Source: Betaproteobacteria bacterium (lineage in GTDB: Bacteria > Pseudomonadota > Gammaproteobacteria > Burkholderiales > Usitatibacteraceae). From it: a stretch of 39,099 bases of DNA. Where the stretch lies: the NCBI GenBank assembly GCA_016790625.1, contig JAEUNB010000038.1:1-39099 (forward strand), read 5' to 3'. Both the position numbers and the translations under genes were made by a program. Position 1 is the stretch's first letter, and every line of letters starts with the position of its first letter. Of this stretch, positions 611 to 30,928 are shown piece by piece. The notes under the pieces are model-generated. The model was not told the DNA's origin and ran no database searches. It saw only the letters and a list, made by a program, of their open reading frames with translations.

Positions 611-1006
611 GTGTCTCATTTGGCAAAAAGCTTCGCGATAACTGGTGCCGCCCGGCGTACGCTGGCGGTGCTGTTGTTGCTTGCGCAACTGCTCAGTCTG
701 TTCGTTGCGCCGATGCACCGCATCGCGCACGCGGCAATCAAGCCAGTGGAGCAAGCTGCGCAGGGAGCGCTTTCAGCGAAAGCGATTCATTCGCATTCGT
801 TGTCCCTCGATTGGTTTGGTCACGAAGCCGGCAGCGGTTGCGATGACTGGAACGCCGCGTTTGCCCACGACGCCAATCCGGCCGATGCCAGTCCGAATAT
901 TCCGTCCACTTCGATCGCTTTACCGGTTGATACCGGTCGGGCGGTCACGTTTACCGATTCCCATCCCGCTGGTCTTTCTCGCGCGCGCGCGCCGCCGCGC
1001 CGCTAA
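611..1006 (+). CDS. small exported DUF2946-like protein, probably metal-related
   Basis: A 131-residue protein starting at GTG 611. It has an Arg-rich start and a hydrophobic stretch at about residues 17-34, so a signal peptide or single anchor. His, Cys and Asp residues follow (MHRIAHA at about 35-41, HSHS at about 59-62, then a GCDDW segment). It ends in ARAPPRR, resembling the short R-(A/G)-P-P tail I associate with DUF2946-type proteins found beside TonB receptors. The gene sits 74 bp before a ZnuD-like receptor on the same strand, so both may serve metal uptake or sensing. Function is not established for this family. An overlapping frame at 645-1022 is Arg-rich without a plausible fold and was not chosen. 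Confidence 0.55.
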   Translation: MSHLAKSFAITGAARRTLAVLLLLAQLLSLFVAPMHRIAHAAIKPVEQAAQGALSAKAIHSHSLSLDWFGHEAGSGCDDWNAAFAHDANPADASPNIPSTSIALPVDTGRAVTFTDSHPAGLSRARAPPRR

Positions 1007-1080
1007 GCACGTCTGTTGTTGAAGGTTGGCGTGGCGTTGCCGCCCAACGTCTTTGCGTGCTGTATTGATGGGGAACCACC

Positions 1081-3165
1081 ATGACTTACCGTTTTCGATT
1101 GACCGCCGTGGCGAATGCGCTGCTGGCGGCGACCTGTGCATCGGCGCAACAAGCGCCGGATAAGTTTCTGGCTGCAACGCCGGAGCCAAAGAAACTTGAA
1201 GAGATTGTTGTGACCGGCAATCCGCTGAAATCCGGCGATGCCGCGGCGCCGGTTTCGGTGCTGGCCGGCACGGAGTTGCTGCTGAAGCGCAGCTCAACAT
1301 TGGGCGAAACCCTGAACGGCATGCCGGGTGTGGCCAATTCGTTCTTCGGCCCCAATGCCGGCCGGCCGATCATTCGCGGGCTCGACGGCGACCGCATCCG
1401 CATCCTTAACAATCAAGGCGCGTCATTCGACGCCTCAAGCCTGAGCTTCGATCACAATCCCACCATCGATCCGCTGGCGATCGAGCGCATCGAAGTGCTG
1501 CGTGGTCCGGCGTCGCTGTTGTACGGTGGTGCGGCGATTGGCGGCGTGGTCAATGTGATCGACAATCGTATTCCGAAGTATTCGGTGTCCGGCATCGGCG
1601 GCACAGTCGAAGCGCGCGCCGGTGGCGCCGAACGTGAGAACGGTTACTCCGGATTGCTGGAAGCCGGTACCGGGCAATTTGCCATTCATGCCGATGGTTT
1701 CTGGCGCGACACCGATAACTATGCTGTTCCGGAATCGGCTGGTGTCGGCAAGCGTGTCGTCAACTCCGCCAGCCGCAGCAAGGGCGGCGCGATTGGTGCC
1801 TCGTTTACCTACGACCGTGGCTATTTCGGCGTGTCGCAATCGGATTATCGCTCGCGCTACGGTACGGTTGCCGAAGCGGACGTCACCATCGACATGAAGC
1901 AGTCGCGGACGACATTTGAAGGCGAGTTCCGCGATCTGGGCACATTCGTCGACAGCATTAATTTGCGTGGTGGCCGCACCGATTATCAGCACACCGAACT
2001 CGAAGGTGCCGAGGTCGGCACCGTATTCACCAACAAGGGCAGCGATTTCCGGCTGGAAGCCAAGCACGCGGCGCTGGGACCGTTATCAGGCGTGATTGGC
2101 GTGCAGGGTGAGACATTCCGCTTCGCTGCGTTGGGTGAGGAAGCTTTCGTGCCCAACACGCGCACGCGCAACGAGGCGCTATTTGCCTATGAAGAGCTGG
2201 TCAATGGCCCATGGAAATTTTCCTTCGGCGTGCGCGCCGAGCGCAGCCGGCTGCGCTCGAGTGGCGAAGGCGACAGTGGCATCGCACGATTCGGCGCGGC
2301 GAACGAAAAGTCGTTCAACGTCACCAGCGCTTCGTTTGGTGCGCTGTTCAAGCTGGACGCGGCCACCAATCTCACCGCGAATGTGGCCAGCAGCCAACGC
2401 GCGCCGGCGTTCTACGAATTGTTCGCCGATGGCGCGCACGTTGCTACGGCTGCATATGAAGTGGGGGATATCAGCCTCAAGCGTGAAAAATCCACCGCAT
2501 TGGATATCGGGCTGCAATGGAAATTTGGCGCCGCGGGAAAATCGAGCGTTCGACTCGGTGCGTTCACTAATCGTTTTGATAATTTCATCGCGTTGCGACG
2601 AACGGGTATTGATCGCGATGTGGAAGGCAACGCTGGCGTGGCCGATTGTGGCGACGGCACCTCGGTCGAGTCAGGTTGTGCAGCGGAAATACTGCCGGAG
2701 TTTCGCTATCAGGGTGTGAAGGCGCGCCTGTCGGGATTCGAGGCTGAAGGCAAATTCCGTCTGGTCGAGAGTCCCTACACGCTGGATATCGAAACCAAGG
2801 TCGATTTCACGCGTGCGCAGGACATCACCCACAATGAGCCGTTGCCGCGGATTGCCCCGCTGCGGATGACATTGGCAAGTGTCTATACCAACGGCCCATG
2901 GGCCGTGAAGGCGGAGATTGAACACGCAACGCGTCAATCGCGTGTGCCGGCCAATGATCTCGTTGGTACGACCGCCGCCTACACCTTGGCGAACCTCGCG
3001 GCGTCTTACTCGATGAAGCTGACGAGCGGTACAGCGCTGTTTTTCCTCAAGGCGAACAATCTGGGTGACCGCAAGGCATTCAATGCGTCGTCGATCGACA
3101 CCATACGTGCATTGGCGCCGTTGCAGGGGCGCGGGATGAAGGCGGGGGTGCAGATCAGCTTTTGA
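1081..3165 (+). CDS. TonB-dependent outer-membrane receptor, ZnuD-like
   Basis: A 694-residue outer-membrane receptor that would import a metal or metal complex using TonB-ExbBD energy. A signal peptide covers about residues 1-22, a TonB-box-like EEIVVTG lies at 40-46, the plug domain covers about 50-160 (RPIIRGLDGDRIRIL and IERIEVLRGPASLLYGGAAI are typical plug motifs), and the barrel runs to the terminal aromatic residue (QISF). The plug, notably the run GASFDASSLSFDHNPTIDPL, resembles ZnuD-type zinc receptors more than siderophore receptors as I recall them. Two cysteines in ADCGDG...ESGCAAE may form an extracellular-loop disulfide. ATG 1081 follows GGGGAACC. The upstream small exported protein probably belongs to the same unit. 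Receptor class is firm; zinc as substrate is inference. Confidence 0.85.
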   Translation: MTYRFRLTAVANALLAATCASAQQAPDKFLAATPEPKKLEEIVVTGNPLKSGDAAAPVSVLAGTELLLKRSSTLGETLNGMPGVANSFFGPNAGRPIIRGLDGDRIRILNNQGASFDASSLSFDHNPTIDPLAIERIEVLRGPASLLYGGAAIGGVVNVIDNRIPKYSVSGIGGTVEARAGGAERENGYSGLLEAGTGQFAIHADGFWRDTDNYAVPESAGVGKRVVNSASRSKGGAIGASFTYDRGYFGVSQSDYRSRYGTVAEADVTIDMKQSRTTFEGEFRDLGTFVDSINLRGGRTDYQHTELEGAEVGTVFTNKGSDFRLEAKHAALGPLSGVIGVQGETFRFAALGEEAFVPNTRTRNEALFAYEELVNGPWKFSFGVRAERSRLRSSGEGDSGIARFGAANEKSFNVTSASFGALFKLDAATNLTANVASSQRAPAFYELFADGAHVATAAYEVGDISLKREKSTALDIGLQWKFGAAGKSSVRLGAFTNRFDNFIALRRTGIDRDVEGNAGVADCGDGTSVESGCAAEILPEFRYQGVKARLSGFEAEGKFRLVESPYTLDIETKVDFTRAQDITHNEPLPRIAPLRMTLASVYTNGPWAVKAEIEHATRQSRVPANDLVGTTAAYTLANLAASYSMKLTSGTALFFLKANNLGDRKAFNASSIDTIRALAPLQGRGMKAGVQISF

Positions 3166-3186
3166 GCGGTACGTCGTAACAGGGTG

Positions 3187-3251
3187 GAACCCTAGCATTG
3201 GAGCGGCTCAGAAGTGGAAAATGGCCTGAAAGCCGCGCCAATGCTGGACTT
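3187..3251. repeat. 66-bp palindromic intergenic element, copy 1
   Basis: Imperfect palindrome just after the TonB-receptor gene. The left arm contains CCCTAGCATTGGAGCGGCT, the right arm AGCCGCGCCAATGCTGG, and the centre GGAAAATGGCCTGAA. The centre and arms match three other copies at 5150, 11088 and 33841. It is followed by TATATTTTTTTAT, so this copy could also end transcription. No coding potential. Confidence 0.75.
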
Positions 3252-3294
3252 ATATTTTTTTATCGCATCATTTGGTCTAAATAAATGCTGTCAG

Positions 3295-3345
3295 AATTAG
3301 TTATTTGCAATATGAGTATCAATTGGTGCAACTAATTGCATATTG
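3295..3345. promoter_or_regulatory. AT-rich region with two interleaved inverted repeats
   Basis: AATTAGTT (3295-3302) is the reverse complement of AACTAATT (3330-3337). CAATATG (3308-3314) is the reverse complement of CATATTG (3339-3345). The order is 1-2-1'-2', so the two pairings cross, as in a pseudoknot; alternatively they are two overlapping protein-binding dyads. The stretch lies about 95 bp before the A1 start and is clearly more AT-rich than the genes around it, so the A1-B1 promoter is probably here. No clean -35/-10 pair was identified. Confidence 0.35.
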
Positions 3346-3438
3346 GCGATTCCGCATTGTCGTAGCTTAGGGCGTCCCCTAATATCGTGCTGGCTGGCGT
3401 TCCGATTGAGAAATAGGAATGCAAACGAGGAGAGGCCC

Positions 3439-4266
3439 ATGCATCGACATTTTTCTTACTTTTTGCAAGGGCTGTCCGCTGCGCTGGCCATGACGGGCGT
3501 TCTGCTGGGCACCAGCGTTGCCGCATCAAATGATCCTCAGACTCCGCACGAAGCCACCAAACCGGGTTTCACCAGCTACAGCGGCGCACCTTGGGTGATC
3601 AACGTGGTGCCACGATCCGCTCCCGCTGGTACGCCTCGCACTATTGTTGTGGCGGGCAGTTGTCCGAATCGATTCGTGCTTGATGAATCGGTCGCGGGTA
3701 CGCTTGCTGTGCGCCTGCAACCGGATGGCACTTGTCCACCGGGTCCCATACCTACCGGTAGCGTGAGCTACACGACTAATGCGGTCGGGACCTTGCGCGT
3801 TGTATTGCAATTCCCATCCGATCCCGCGGTTGTCGCCGAAACCACCATGGTGACGACTGCAGGATCGCGCTCTCGATCAAATTTCAACATGAGTGGCATG
3901 TGGTACGACCCCGCCACCGACGGCTCAGGCATTTCGTTTCATCACAACTCGACCACCGACTCCGTATTCGGCACCTGGTTTATGTACGGCCTGACGACAG
4001 CGCCGAGGCCGGGGTCGCGCTGGTTTTCGCTGCAAGGGATGCAATGGGTGGATAACGGCTCCGCGCTGGAGGGATTGGCGCTGGAGGCGACCGCGAGGTC
4101 GGCGCAGTGCGAACTGGCGCGATCCTGTCCTCGTGGCGCCGATAGCATTGGTTATCGCGGGCGCGTCCGTGTGTCGCTGACCGACGCGAACAACGCGCGC
4201 ATCGAGGCATTCGATGTGTTTGGCACCAGCGTTTTTGTGTCCAATCTCAAGCGGCTGGTGTTCTGA
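3439..4266 (+). CDS. exported protein A1 with GMWYDPAT module
   Basis: Unnamed 275-residue exported protein. ATG 3439 was chosen over an upstream ATG at 3343 because GAGGAGAGG stands just before it and a typical signal peptide follows (residues 1 to about 29, ending SVAA). The N-terminal half looks beta-rich and has cysteines at 75 and 99. The module GMWYDPATDGSGISFHHN begins near residue 153, then FGTWFMYG, RWFSLQGMQW and LEG. A second Cys pair is at 224 and 230. The C-terminus has EAFDVFG...VFVSNLKRL. It is closely related to A2 (5279-6070) and more distantly to B1 and B2. The module resembles the W/Y-rich SGxWY-P-SGxG repeat of proteobacterial secreted proteins. Function unknown; probably periplasmic or extracellular. 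Confidence 0.85.
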   Translation: MHRHFSYFLQGLSAALAMTGVLLGTSVAASNDPQTPHEATKPGFTSYSGAPWVINVVPRSAPAGTPRTIVVAGSCPNRFVLDESVAGTLAVRLQPDGTCPPGPIPTGSVSYTTNAVGTLRVVLQFPSDPAVVAETTMVTTAGSRSRSNFNMSGMWYDPATDGSGISFHHNSTTDSVFGTWFMYGLTTAPRPGSRWFSLQGMQWVDNGSALEGLALEATARSAQCELARSCPRGADSIGYRGRVRVSLTDANNARIEAFDVFGTSVFVSNLKRLVF

Positions 4267-4267
4267 C

Positions 4268-5128
4268 ATGAAGGCCACTATTGCTTGCAGTGTGGGGATC
4301 GGGCGCGTCATTGCGCTGATCGCGTTGTCGTCAAGTGGTCTCGCGACCGCACAAACGCAGATTCAGCCCACCACCTCCAGCCAATACGCCGCCTCATCCT
4401 TGGTGGCGTGGCCAACAACCAGCGGCCCGCAGATTCGCGTGGTACCCGCGTCAGCACCGGTAAACACACCGAGACAGGTTAGTGTGCGTACCGCGGCTAT
4501 GCCGTCTTGTTTTGGTTCGGGTTACTTTCCACGCGAGCTCGATTTGTCGACACTCAGCACCGGAACGGTTCGGATTCGCAGCGAATTCCTGACCTACAGC
4601 CTGATCTGTGGTGTGGCTCCGCCCCCAAGTCCGCGATACGCAGAGTACAGTTTCACCGTATCGGAGCCGGGTGTCGTGAAGATTGTGTTTGCCGATGGCC
4701 CCTCGACAACCGCCGAGACCACCATGACTACAACGGCGCCAGGAACCTCCCAGGCATTCTTCGAAGTCAATGGTATGTGGTACGACACGGCCACCAATGG
4801 ATCGGGCATCTCCATCCATCAGCGCACCAGCTTCGGCGGCCCCGCGTTTGGTACCTGGTTTATGTTCGACAGAGATGGAATCTCCCGCTGGTATTCACTG
4901 CAGGTAACCAGTTGGTCGCAGGCCGGGAAAACACTGGAGGGTTTGTTCATAGAGTCGGTCGCGAATCGCTGCGAGACGCTGGCGTCCTGCCCGATGAAGA
5001 GCGTATTTTCCCTCCCGACGTACAACTTCAGGATTCGTTTCCAGTCATCCGCGCTGGCGGTAGCGGAAGTGTTCGGGTTGCAGGGAGAGGTGCTGTTTCG
5101 CTCCAATCTGCGGCGGCTGGAGCAATAG
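4268..5128 (+). CDS. exported protein B1 with GMWYDTAT module
   Basis: Unnamed 286-residue exported protein. ATG 4268 lies one base after the A1 stop, which implies translational coupling; an ATG at 4214 would overlap A1 and lacks a signal peptide. The signal peptide is residues 1 to about 28 (ending ATAQ). It shares with A1 a segment RVVPASAPVNTPRQ near 57-70 (A1: NVVPRSAPAGTPRT), cysteines at 81/114 and 235/241, the module NGMWYDTATNGSGISIH from 168, FGTWFMFD, RWYSLQ, LEGLFIES, and a C-terminal EVFG...LFRSNLRRL. It is most similar to B2 (6067-6975). A and B look like diverged halves of one ancestral gene that became a pair. Function unknown. Confidence 0.85.
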   Translation: MKATIACSVGIGRVIALIALSSSGLATAQTQIQPTTSSQYAASSLVAWPTTSGPQIRVVPASAPVNTPRQVSVRTAAMPSCFGSGYFPRELDLSTLSTGTVRIRSEFLTYSLICGVAPPPSPRYAEYSFTVSEPGVVKIVFADGPSTTAETTMTTTAPGTSQAFFEVNGMWYDTATNGSGISIHQRTSFGGPAFGTWFMFDRDGISRWYSLQVTSWSQAGKTLEGLFIESVANRCETLASCPMKSVFSLPTYNFRIRFQSSALAVAEVFGLQGEVLFRSNLRRLEQ

Positions 5129-5149
5129 TTTTGGCAGCAGGGAAACGAC

Positions 5150-5215
5150 AAACTCAAGCACTGGAGCGGTTCACAGGGCAAAAACGGCTGGAAATGACCG
5201 TCAATGCTAGGGTTT
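5150..5215. repeat. 66-bp palindromic intergenic element, copy 2
   Basis: Lies between B1 and A2, separating the two gene pairs. The left arm begins AAACTCAAGCACTGGAGCGG; the right arm is GACCGTCAATGCTAGGGTTT; the centre is GCAAAAACGGCTGGAA. The palindrome is weaker than in copy 4, but length and layout are the same. Confidence 0.7.
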
Positions 5216-5278
5216 GGCAGGTCGAATTGAAGAAAATGAAACGCTTAATGTTGATCAATCAAAACCGGCAATAGTCTT

Positions 5279-6070
5279 ATGAAAAAAATCTTGATCGTGC
5301 TGGGTATGTGGATGGTCGCCCCCGCGGTGCTTGCATCGGGTTTGCATGAGTCTCCCACTGAGAAAAGTAAAGCGGCATTCACCAACGATGCGCAACTTCC
5401 CTGGCATGTGACGGTGGTACCGAAGTCCGCCCCGATCGGTACGCCGCGCACCATTATCGTTGCGGGCGGATGTCCGGCTGTGCTGAAGCAGGATGAGTCG
5501 ACAGCTGGCGTTCTCAAGTTGCGTGTCACCGATTTCACTTGTCCGCTCGGGCTGGTGGCGACGGCGTTTTTGCCGTACACCCCTCAGGTCGAGGGCGCTT
5601 TGGCGGTGAAGCTGTATTTTTACGACGGCAACGATGTGATTCAAGAGACCAGCATGACGACGACTGCAGGTGCGCGACCGCATTCAAGCACCGATATTTC
5701 CGGCATGTGGTACGACCCGGCTACCAGCGGTTCCGGCATTTCTTTTCATCACAATCCGGCCAGTGATGCCGTATTTGGCACCTGGTTCATGTTTGGTTCT
5801 GCCGGCACCAGCTCGTTTCGTTCACGCTGGTTTTCGCTGCAAGCCATGCAATGGGTCTCCAACAATGTCCTGGAAGGCATTGCTTTGGAGTCGGCATCGA
5901 AATCGACAACGTGCCTGGCCAGTAACTCCTGCCCGTTGACCGCAGGCAGACCCGGCGCGCGCGGAATTGTTCGCGTCACGCTGACCGGCGGCAATGAAGC
6001 CAAAATCGAGGCTTTCGATTTGTTTGGCGCTGCGCTGTTCACGTCCAATCTGACGAGGATTCGGCTATGA
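5279..6070 (+). CDS. exported protein A2 with GMWYDPAT module
   Basis: Unnamed 263-residue paralogue of A1. A short signal peptide (residues 1 to about 19, VLAS) is followed by WHVTVVPKSAPIGTPRTI near 42-59, which lines up with A1. Cysteines are at 65 and 88. The module SGMWYDPATSGSGISFHHN begins at 141, then FGTWFMFG, RWFSLQAMQW, LEGIALES, a Cys pair in TTCLASNSCP, and EAFDLFGAALFTSNLTRI at the end. No strong Shine-Dalgarno stands before ATG 5279, unlike A1. The stop overlaps the B2 start (ATGA), so A2-B2 repeats the tight A1-B1 arrangement. Function unknown. Confidence 0.85.
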   Translation: MKKILIVLGMWMVAPAVLASGLHESPTEKSKAAFTNDAQLPWHVTVVPKSAPIGTPRTIIVAGGCPAVLKQDESTAGVLKLRVTDFTCPLGLVATAFLPYTPQVEGALAVKLYFYDGNDVIQETSMTTTAGARPHSSTDISGMWYDPATSGSGISFHHNPASDAVFGTWFMFGSAGTSSFRSRWFSLQAMQWVSNNVLEGIALESASKSTTCLASNSCPLTAGRPGARGIVRVTLTGGNEAKIEAFDLFGAALFTSNLTRIRL

Positions 6071-6975
6071 CAGGCCCGATATCGTCACTTGCATCACGGC
6101 ATCGTGCATGGCGCCGCCGGTTGAGCAAGTCGGCAGTGCTTGCTGCATGCGTGACTTCGCTATGTGCGTCAGCTCAATCAGGTAACGCTGCTTATGACGA
6201 ATTAACACTGCGGGTCCTGGGCAAGTTTGCGGGGTCGCTGTTACAGCCACGCACACAAGCCAGCATACGCATTTTGCCCGAGCGCGCACCGATGGGAGTT
6301 TTACGCAGCATCGCCATGTCCGTGACGCACCCACCCGGTTGCAGCGGCGACTTTGTCGGTGCCGCGCTCACGCTTGACATCTCGACGATGAGTAACGGGT
6401 TTATCAATATCGGCACTCGTGCACCCAGCCGATATTCTCTTTGCCCAGGGACTCCACCGTTGATTGGCTCGTCCGTTTCTCCCATCATCAACACCTACTA
6501 CGAAATCACGCCCACGACAGCCGGAACCGTCAAAATCCGCTACGCGGACCCGCTAGGAGGCCCAATCGAAGCAACGATGATCACCACGGCGGTCGGTACA
6601 GCGACACCGCGTTATGACATCAACGGCATGTGGTACGACCCCGCCAGCGACGGATCGGGCATTTCGATGCACCAGACGCCGGCCGCAGGCGTCGGGACAT
6701 TGGGCACGTGGTTCATGTTCGACAAAAATGGCGTCACGCGTTGGTATTCGCTGCAAGCGTCGAGCTGGATTGCGGCAGATACGCTCGAAGGCTTATTTAT
6801 TGAAGCGATAGCTTCGTGCGGGAAAGGCGCGGCTTGCCCGGCACCGGCGATCGTGCTGACACCCACGTTCAACTTCCGCATGGTTTTTCAATCCGCCACC
6901 TCAGCCACGGCTGAGGTGTTTGGCGAGGGTGGTGCACTGCTATTCAAGTCGGAACTGCGCCGCCTTCAGCTTTGA
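6067..6975 (+). CDS. exported protein B2 with GMWYDPAS module
   Basis: Unnamed 302-residue paralogue of B1. The start ATG 6067 overlaps the A2 stop by four bases. The N-terminus has RHRAWRRRLSKS and then a hydrophobic stretch ending CASAQ near residue 37, a long but plausible signal peptide. It shares the SIRILPERAPMGVLRS segment near 66-81, cysteines near 92 and 126, the module NGMWYDPASDGSGISMHQ from 186, LGTWFMFD, RWYSLQ, LEGLFIEA, a Cys pair (SCGKGAACP), and a C-terminal EVFGEGGALLFKSELRRL. The protein may act with A2. Function unknown; the family link to B1 is clear by eye. Confidence 0.85.
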   Translation: MTGPISSLASRHRAWRRRLSKSAVLAACVTSLCASAQSGNAAYDELTLRVLGKFAGSLLQPRTQASIRILPERAPMGVLRSIAMSVTHPPGCSGDFVGAALTLDISTMSNGFINIGTRAPSRYSLCPGTPPLIGSSVSPIINTYYEITPTTAGTVKIRYADPLGGPIEATMITTAVGTATPRYDINGMWYDPASDGSGISMHQTPAAGVGTLGTWFMFDKNGVTRWYSLQASSWIAADTLEGLFIEAIASCGKGAACPAPAIVLTPTFNFRMVFQSATSATAEVFGEGGALLFKSELRRLQL

Positions 6976-29918: not shown

Positions 29919-30928
29919 GCATCGATATTCTTCCCTGGCATACAGAAACGCTGCGCGAACTGCTGTCGCGCCGGGAACGTTTGCCGCACGCCTTGCTGAT
30001 ATACGGCCGCCAAGGAATTGGCAAAGTTGAATTCGCGCGTGCGCTCGCGCAATCGCTGCTTTGCGAGGCGCCGGACCAGGGGGTGGCCTGCGGCCAATGC
30101 CCGGCCTGTCACTGGTTTAGCGAACACAACCATCCTGACTTTCGCGAGCTCGTTCCTGAGGCGCTGGCTGAGGAAGACACTGATGGAGAGGAAATTGCCG
30201 ATCCCGATGCCAAGGAAAAAAAGAAAAGCCGCGAAATCAAGATCGAGCAGGTACGCAATATTGCGGACTTCATGACCTTGTCCACGCATCGCGATGGCTT
30301 TCGCGTGCTGCTGGTGCATCCGGCAGAGACCATGAATTTGGCTGCGGCGAACGCGCTGCTGAAAACCCTGGAAGAGCCACCACCAAGAACAGCCATCCTG
30401 CTGGTGACCGACAGTATTGGAAGACTGCTGGCGACGATCAAAAGCCGCTGTCAGCGCATCCTGGTTCCTGCACCAGATGAATCGACGGCGCTGGCTTGGC
30501 TGACGGCGCAGGGAGCGGCCGACGTCGAGGTGGCGCTTGCCGCGGCTGGCGGTGCACCTCTGGATGCCATTGCCTTTGCCGATGCCGAGTATCAGTCCCA
30601 GCGTCGTCAGTTCGTGCAGACATTGGCAGATACCAATGCCGACTATCTGGCCACCGCACAAGCATTTGAAAAAGCGGATTTGGTCAACGTTGTTACCTGG
30701 CTGCAAACATGGGTGAGCGACCTCGCGCTGTCTCGCCTGACTGGTCAAGTACGTCACCATCGCGACCAGAAAGCGGCCTTATCCCGTCTGGCAACGCGGC
30801 TCAGCTTGCCTGCCCTGTTCCGTTACGAATCGCAACTACGTCAGGCACGCCGCAGCATTCATCACCCGCTGAACGCAAGACTTTTGCTGGAACAGTTGCT
30901 AATATCGTATGCGCAGGCCATACGTTAG
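29915..30928 (+). CDS. holB: DNA polymerase III delta' subunit
   Basis: Clamp-loader subunit of the replicative polymerase. It has 337 residues from GTG 29915, coupled to tmk. The N-terminal AAA+ domain has a modified P-loop GRQGIGKVEFA at 31-41. A zinc module with four cysteines (50, 59, 62, 65, in ACGQCPAC) is typical. LLKTLEEPP near 149-157 carries the clamp-loader SRC-region context and SRC-like KSRCQRI follows near 175. The acidic/lysine insert around 85-110 is longer than usual. The C-terminal domain matches clamp-loader collar length. Confidence 0.95.
   Translation: MSIDILPWHTETLRELLSRRERLPHALLIYGRQGIGKVEFARALAQSLLCEAPDQGVACGQCPACHWFSEHNHPDFRELVPEALAEEDTDGEEIADPDAKEKKKSREIKIEQVRNIADFMTLSTHRDGFRVLLVHPAETMNLAAANALLKTLEEPPPRTAILLVTDSIGRLLATIKSRCQRILVPAPDESTALAWLTAQGAADVEVALAAAGGAPLDAIAFADAEYQSQRRQFVQTLADTNADYLATAQAFEKADLVNVVTWLQTWVSDLALSRLTGQVRHHRDQKAALSRLATRLSLPALFRYESQLRQARRSIHHPLNARLLLEQLLISYAQAIR

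Follow-up and report, generated by a model that had tools for sequence, protein, structure and literature searches.

What do four consecutive genes for exported paralogues of no assigned function encode, and why do they stand two by two? The genes (A1, B1, A2 and B2) lie on contig JAEUNB010000038.1 (assembly GCA_016790625.1) of a betaproteobacterium of the family Usitatibacteraceae; the whole stretch analysed, 39,099 nucleotides, is called the window below. The explanation of the whole towards which we lean is that the cluster is a bicistronic unit, now present twice in tandem, which encodes calycin-type exported pairs and was relocated from a DUF6502 regulon. What is new here is the predicted calycin fold of the C-terminal module, the link of sister pairs to DUF6502 and DUF5666, and a palindromic candidate operator.

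Four paralogues in two co-linear units

The four genes are as follows, with the evidence for each in brackets.

3439..4266, forward strand: A1, exported protein of 275 residues with a predicted Ig-like (immunoglobulin-like) domain and calycin barrel (open reading frame, paralogy, AlphaFold2 model, fold matches); Ig-like domain at about residues 53-140 and barrel at about 145-275 (model and fold matches)
4268..5128, forward strand: B1, exported protein of 286 residues with the same two predicted domains (open reading frame, model, fold matches for both domains)
5279..6070, forward strand: A2, second A paralogue, 263 residues (open reading frame, identity to A1, tree)
6067..6975, forward strand: B2, second B paralogue, 302 residues (open reading frame, identity to B1, tree)

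An earlier sequence-only reading had described four adjacent genes with coupled starts, and the open reading frames (ORFs) confirm both points: all four are on the forward strand, B1 starts 1 base past the A1 stop, and A2 and B2 overlap by 4 bases (ATGA). The resemblance of A1 to A2 and of B1 to B2, which had been judged by eye, was borne out by an all-against-all blastp of the four proteins. A1 and A2 are 51.6% identical (E 1e-87) and B1 and B2 44.4% (E 3e-61), compared with 31-37% between A and B proteins, where every match is still far beyond chance (E 2e-25 or better). More than 50 columns are invariant across the four-protein alignment, including GMWYD-A--GSGIS-H, GTWFM, RW-SLQ, LEG, C..CP and a C-terminal F-S-L-R. 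B2 departs from several of the shared motifs listed by the earlier reading: it carries ILPERAPMGVLR where VVPxSAPxxTPR had been quoted, and it reads LGTWFM rather than FGTWFM. The final motif had been given a spacing of three to four residues, which the alignment does not bear out: A proteins have FG-x2-(V/L)F, B proteins FG-x5-LF. The N-terminal domain holds another conserved pair of Cys (C75/C99 in A1). Signal peptides of the four proteins were called by eye only; residues 5-24 are helical in the A1 model.

Relatives were sought with a profile of the four proteins among 28 genomes of the same small betaproteobacterial family. The barrel module was matched in 25 of these and the full Ig-barrel architecture strongly in 11. 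Outside the family, weaker single copies were found in two genomes from another family of the same order, and in a phylum-wide sample of 398 genomes the four-protein profile matched only the genome of origin. A contig scan gave no relative with a four-row profile and seven with a 20-row profile. Named relatives belong to betaproteobacterial metagenome-assembled genomes and to the complete genome CP019169 of strain GR16-43.

The tree supports duplication of a whole unit. The A-B lineage forms a clade (support 98.1/98) in which B1 and B2 are sisters (98.4/100), next to the B gene of G010 (contig C13) and that of G001 (contig C156), the latter truncated by a contig edge. The A gene of G010 falls with A1 and A2, and the branching within this trio has weak support (64/91). 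A topology that instead joins A1 with B1 and A2 with B2 is rejected by the approximately unbiased (AU) test (p = 1.7e-7), as expected if, as had been proposed, a two-gene unit was duplicated after the A/B split. G010 has a single A-B pair, on contig C13, with the tight spacing retained; since its genes fall in the A and B groups, the single pair is, judged from the tree, older than the duplication seen in the window. The A-B pair sits at a different place in each of three genomes. In G011, a genome without DUF6502, a C-terminal fragment of a B-type gene (L071 15424-15723) ends the contig and looks like a remnant.

Adjacent pairs also occur in G012, G006, G004 (two loci), G019 and G014, with a more distant type on contig C377 of the genome of origin, and their gaps are mostly between -4 and about 30 bases (one is 104). 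A further pair of the genome of origin, C-D, is probably split over the end of contig C264 and the start of C72, because the combined order (DUF5666, DUF6502 / C, D, nrdA) matches that of the intact G012 locus (contig C178). This recurrence of homologues as adjacent pairs makes co-expression plausible. The conserved A-B pairing anticipated in relatives was found in part: adjacent pairs do recur, though not as A and B types. Members of the other pairs tend to group by locus in the tree, and the A/B split is therefore specific to the A-B lineage rather than family-wide; the other pairs appear to stem from separate duplications or to have been homogenised.

These data bear on whether the window genes are ordinary tandem duplicates, kept for dosage or variation, with A and B acting alone and their coupling a recent adjacency. 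Tandem arrays without strict pairing (five genes in G017), single genes in G026 and G017, and the seemingly independent origin of other pairs all fit such an account. It is nevertheless doubtful, because the A/B divergence is old (31-37% identity), with adjacency and tight spacing retained in G010, and because the whole unit, not one gene, was duplicated in the window. As the earlier reading surmised, A and B may form a heteromer, which we consider likely.

Predicted fold of the two domains

Neither the four proteins nor their C-terminal module found an informative match in Pfam, NCBIfam, PHROGs or PDB sequences, in keeping with the absence of an assigned function from the earlier reading; weak PDB sequence matches to RET kinase and to a VHH were dismissed as chance. 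A full-text literature search for the module's motifs returned no paper. The fold was therefore approached by structure prediction. AlphaFold2 models had a mean predicted local distance difference test (pLDDT) of 80.9 for A1 and 74.9 for B1. The A1 model ends in eight consecutive strands, and the best matches of both models are eight-stranded barrels. For the A1 barrel these included designed barrels (Z 11.9; 2.7 Å over 102 residues), Cap15 (Z 11.5), avidin (Z 10.4; 3.0 Å over 102 residues), Tp0751 (Z 10.2), streptavidin (Z 9.9) and nitrophorin (Z 9.5), and the B1 barrel gave matches in agreement.

In the calycin superfamily a Trp of the first strand is characteristically latched onto Arg or Lys in the last one (PMC2954199). 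The GxW Trp of the first barrel strand (W155) occurs in 31 of 32 sequences, and 29 of the 32 have Arg or Lys at the last-strand position (R/K272). On these models and alignments, the case for a calycin barrel is good but not final. Like avidins, lipocalins and nitrophorins, the family combines export with a predicted eight-stranded barrel, a GxW first strand and a last-strand Arg/Lys. It differs from them in having an Ig-like domain in front, in coming as co-transcribed pairs and, in the Ig-barrel subfamily, in a short loop, Cys-x(n)-Cys-Pro, that follows barrel strand five. Neither avidin (PF01382) nor lipocalin (PF00061) was matched in Pfam at E <= 1 by the four proteins, 20 relatives or 18 isolated modules.

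The N-terminal domain is predicted to be an Ig-like sandwich. Residues 50-158 of B1 matched SoxYZ chains (Foldseek probability 0.97, E 0.04; Z 5.6), and the B1 N-terminal domain matched CARDB (3idu/2kl6; Z 6.3, 3.4 Å over 93 residues). The likeness to the SoxY and CARDB domains is weak and concerns a common fold; the sequence here is different and carries its own conserved Cys pair. None of the four proteins matched SoxY in Pfam or NCBIfam.

The barrel module, called the W-module below, is modelled by no Pfam or NCBIfam entry and is rare in the phylum-wide sample, where it was found in 4 of the 398 genomes, the genome of origin included. Lacking the Cys-rich loop, it also occurs in fusions with trypsin-like peptidases and RCC1 repeats, with a cytochrome-c-like or a Big_1-like domain and with a PF09826 beta-propeller; elsewhere it stands by itself with N-terminal domains of other kinds. 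Such reuse as a C-terminal or repeated unit would suit an accessory role, in which the barrel has no ligand pocket, the W-module serves assembly or stability, and the proteins are structural components of surface, matrix or adhesion; the four near-invariant Trp of the module may simply fill the barrel. We regard this account as unlikely, given that calycins are mostly binders (PMC2954199) and that the polar positions H169 and Q199 are strongly conserved. Our best guess is that the proteins are exported and bind ligands or surfaces outside the cytoplasm, and that the two of a pair are co-translated and possibly form heteromers.

DUF6502, DUF5666 and a shared palindrome

At nine loci, a DUF6502 (PF20112) gene followed by a DUF5666 (PF18914) gene stands directly head-to-head with relatives of A and B (C264 of the genome of origin, G012, G006, G019, G026, G017, G001, G005 and G010). 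These neighbours of sister pairs score above the curated cut-offs for both families; the window cluster, in contrast, has neither beside it. No paper in the literature library searched mentions DUF6502. DUF6502 is present in 11 of the 11 genomes with strong Ig-barrel genes compared with 1 of the 17 without, and within three genera the two vary together in presence.

The intergenic regions shared by the divergent genes contain, usually twice, the palindrome TGYGGGAAnnnTTCCCRCA; TGTGGGAAGTGTTCCCACA is a putative target site for the DUF6502 protein of strain GR16-43 (CP019169). In the genus of the window's genome the palindrome overlaps a plausible -10 box, 17 bases past hexamers resembling TTGACA or TTGCAT, and in the other genera its position, read off the sequences, is shifted downstream by roughly one helical turn. 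Allowing at most one mismatch, 24 sites were found in the 28 genomes compared with 3 for a reversed-pattern control. Eighteen of the 24 clearly precede genes for DUF6502 or W-module proteins, another is some 445 bases upstream of a W-module gene, and one is just upstream of an exported-protein gene in G017. The remaining 4 fall inside ORFs and look like chance (in G009, in G023, at 3621780 in G019 and at 3319777 in G017). Sites before DUF6502 or barrel-module genes are restricted to the 11 genomes with strong Ig-barrel genes.

The palindrome also follows its presumptive targets when they are apart. In G014, where DUF6502 and the pair lie on separate contigs, each retains the palindrome, and a third copy stands before the gene of a protein that has a beta-propeller and two W-modules. 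In G017, a CP019169-type genome, five tandem W-module genes (L165 3747-7999) lie behind a TTGACA promoter and one operator-like site with one mismatch, the last of the five also encoding a W-module/propeller-type protein. DUF6502 is probably a regulator acting on the palindrome, and because the palindrome lies over the promoter, its position suggests repression. When DUF6502 was searched against PDB sequences for a helix-turn-helix fold, none was matched; the hits, to designed helical repeats and the like, were put down to chance.

Three side observations concern these loci. The G017 gene for an exported protein without a W-module (L163 about 2580-4076, reverse strand) starts just downstream of its one-mismatch site and is a possible further regulon member. 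A second, more canonical DUF6502 type (L161 1043-1912 and L160 1504-2454; E about 1e-64 to 1e-72) also adjoins DUF5666 genes, without the palindrome. At the DUF6502 locus of G001, G005 and G010 (L063 8915-9832, L068 1843-2760 and L070 763-1680) one gene replaces the pair; its product apparently has neither a signal peptide nor the Cys pair of the barrel loop, and at least in G001 the gene is preceded by a short ORF, coupled to it, whose module is degenerate. This replacement possibly reflects a shift to a cytosolic role, or decay.

Origin and setting of the window cluster

In the window the palindrome has only one match at three mismatches (position 29970), no more than chance, and none near A1 or A2; the copy of this genome sits at C264. 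The A-B units, without the site and without DUF6502-DUF5666 neighbours, look like relocated daughter copies. Two further elements flank them.

3190..3256, forward strand: strong hairpin followed by a T-run, between a znuD-like gene and A1 (folding, sequence)
5150..5218, forward strand: copy of a dispersed hairpin-forming repeat of about 67 bp, between B1 and A2 (matches in the genome of origin, copies aligned and folded)

The first hairpin is predicted at -32.2 kcal/mol (folded stretch 3181-3265) and is likely a terminator; a consensus terminator scan, which allows short loops only, did not list it. Since it separates the znuD-like gene from A1, A1-B1 is probably its own transcription unit. 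The repeat between B1 and A2 has at least 35 further matches in the genome, at roughly 73-92% identity, and Rfam gave no match anywhere in the window, this repeat included. By eye the first hairpin resembles the repeat, the copy after the znuD-like gene ending in the T-run. As one hairpin sets A1-B1 apart from the znuD-like gene and the other sets A2-B2 apart from B1, and as the operator is absent near A1 and A2, each of the two units is probably transcribed on its own and does not belong to the DUF6502 regulon.

Upstream, at 611-3165, lie a small exported ORF and then the gene for a ZnuD-like TonB-dependent receptor, which matches NF038289 at E 4e-84, yet under the curated cut-off. The position of the cluster behind this gene on the same strand, and the haem carried by some calycins (nitrophorins), could suggest that the two work together, for example in zinc or haem capture. 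This is very improbable given the strong hairpin and T-run between them, and no relative locus examined has a ZnuD-like receptor or uvrB gene beside the family; a link to either was rejected for this reason.

Under the explanation that we favour, that of relocated calycin-type pairs, the ancestral pair would have been transcribed divergently from the DUF6502-DUF5666 operon, with the palindrome overlapping or abutting the pair's promoter and DUF6502 acting there. The A-B units would have moved away, lost the operator and later been duplicated in this lineage. The two proteins of a unit would be co-translated and exported, and would probably form a heteromer; the barrel would bind a surface polymer or a ligand, with the Ig-like domain as a spacer or as the interface to the partner. 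Of all this, the gene structure, the paralogy, the duplication of the unit, the recurring pairs and the palindrome's placement and co-occurrence are computational results; the fold and the role of the regulator are predictions, and binding function, location and heteromer are inferred. A bolder version, which we hold tentatively and to which we give slightly less than an even chance, is that DUF6502 represents a new class of DNA-binding repressor reading this palindrome and controlling Ig-calycin pairs, the DUF5666 lipoprotein and W-module fusions, and that the window pair escaped this control, duplicated and evolves as a heteromeric binder.

Several points count against the explanation. The AlphaFold2 models were built from 16 sequences, Foldseek gave no match with an E-value below 0.001, and middling Z scores are common among small barrels. 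Several relatives are single genes (L065, L066), and G026 and G017 keep just one gene, so partners are not obligatory family-wide. The association of DUF6502 with strong Ig-barrel genes has a Fisher p of 6e-7 over the 28 genomes with kinship ignored, binding of DUF6502 to the palindrome is argued from position and co-occurrence only, and the window, having no operator, does not itself show regulation of A-B.

With this analysis, a module that neither Pfam nor NCBIfam covers acquires a fold open to test, and these genomes contain that module many times over, also in fusions with secreted peptidases, propellers and other proteins. For DUF6502 the result is a concrete hypothesis, in which it would regulate itself and a few exported targets through a named operator.

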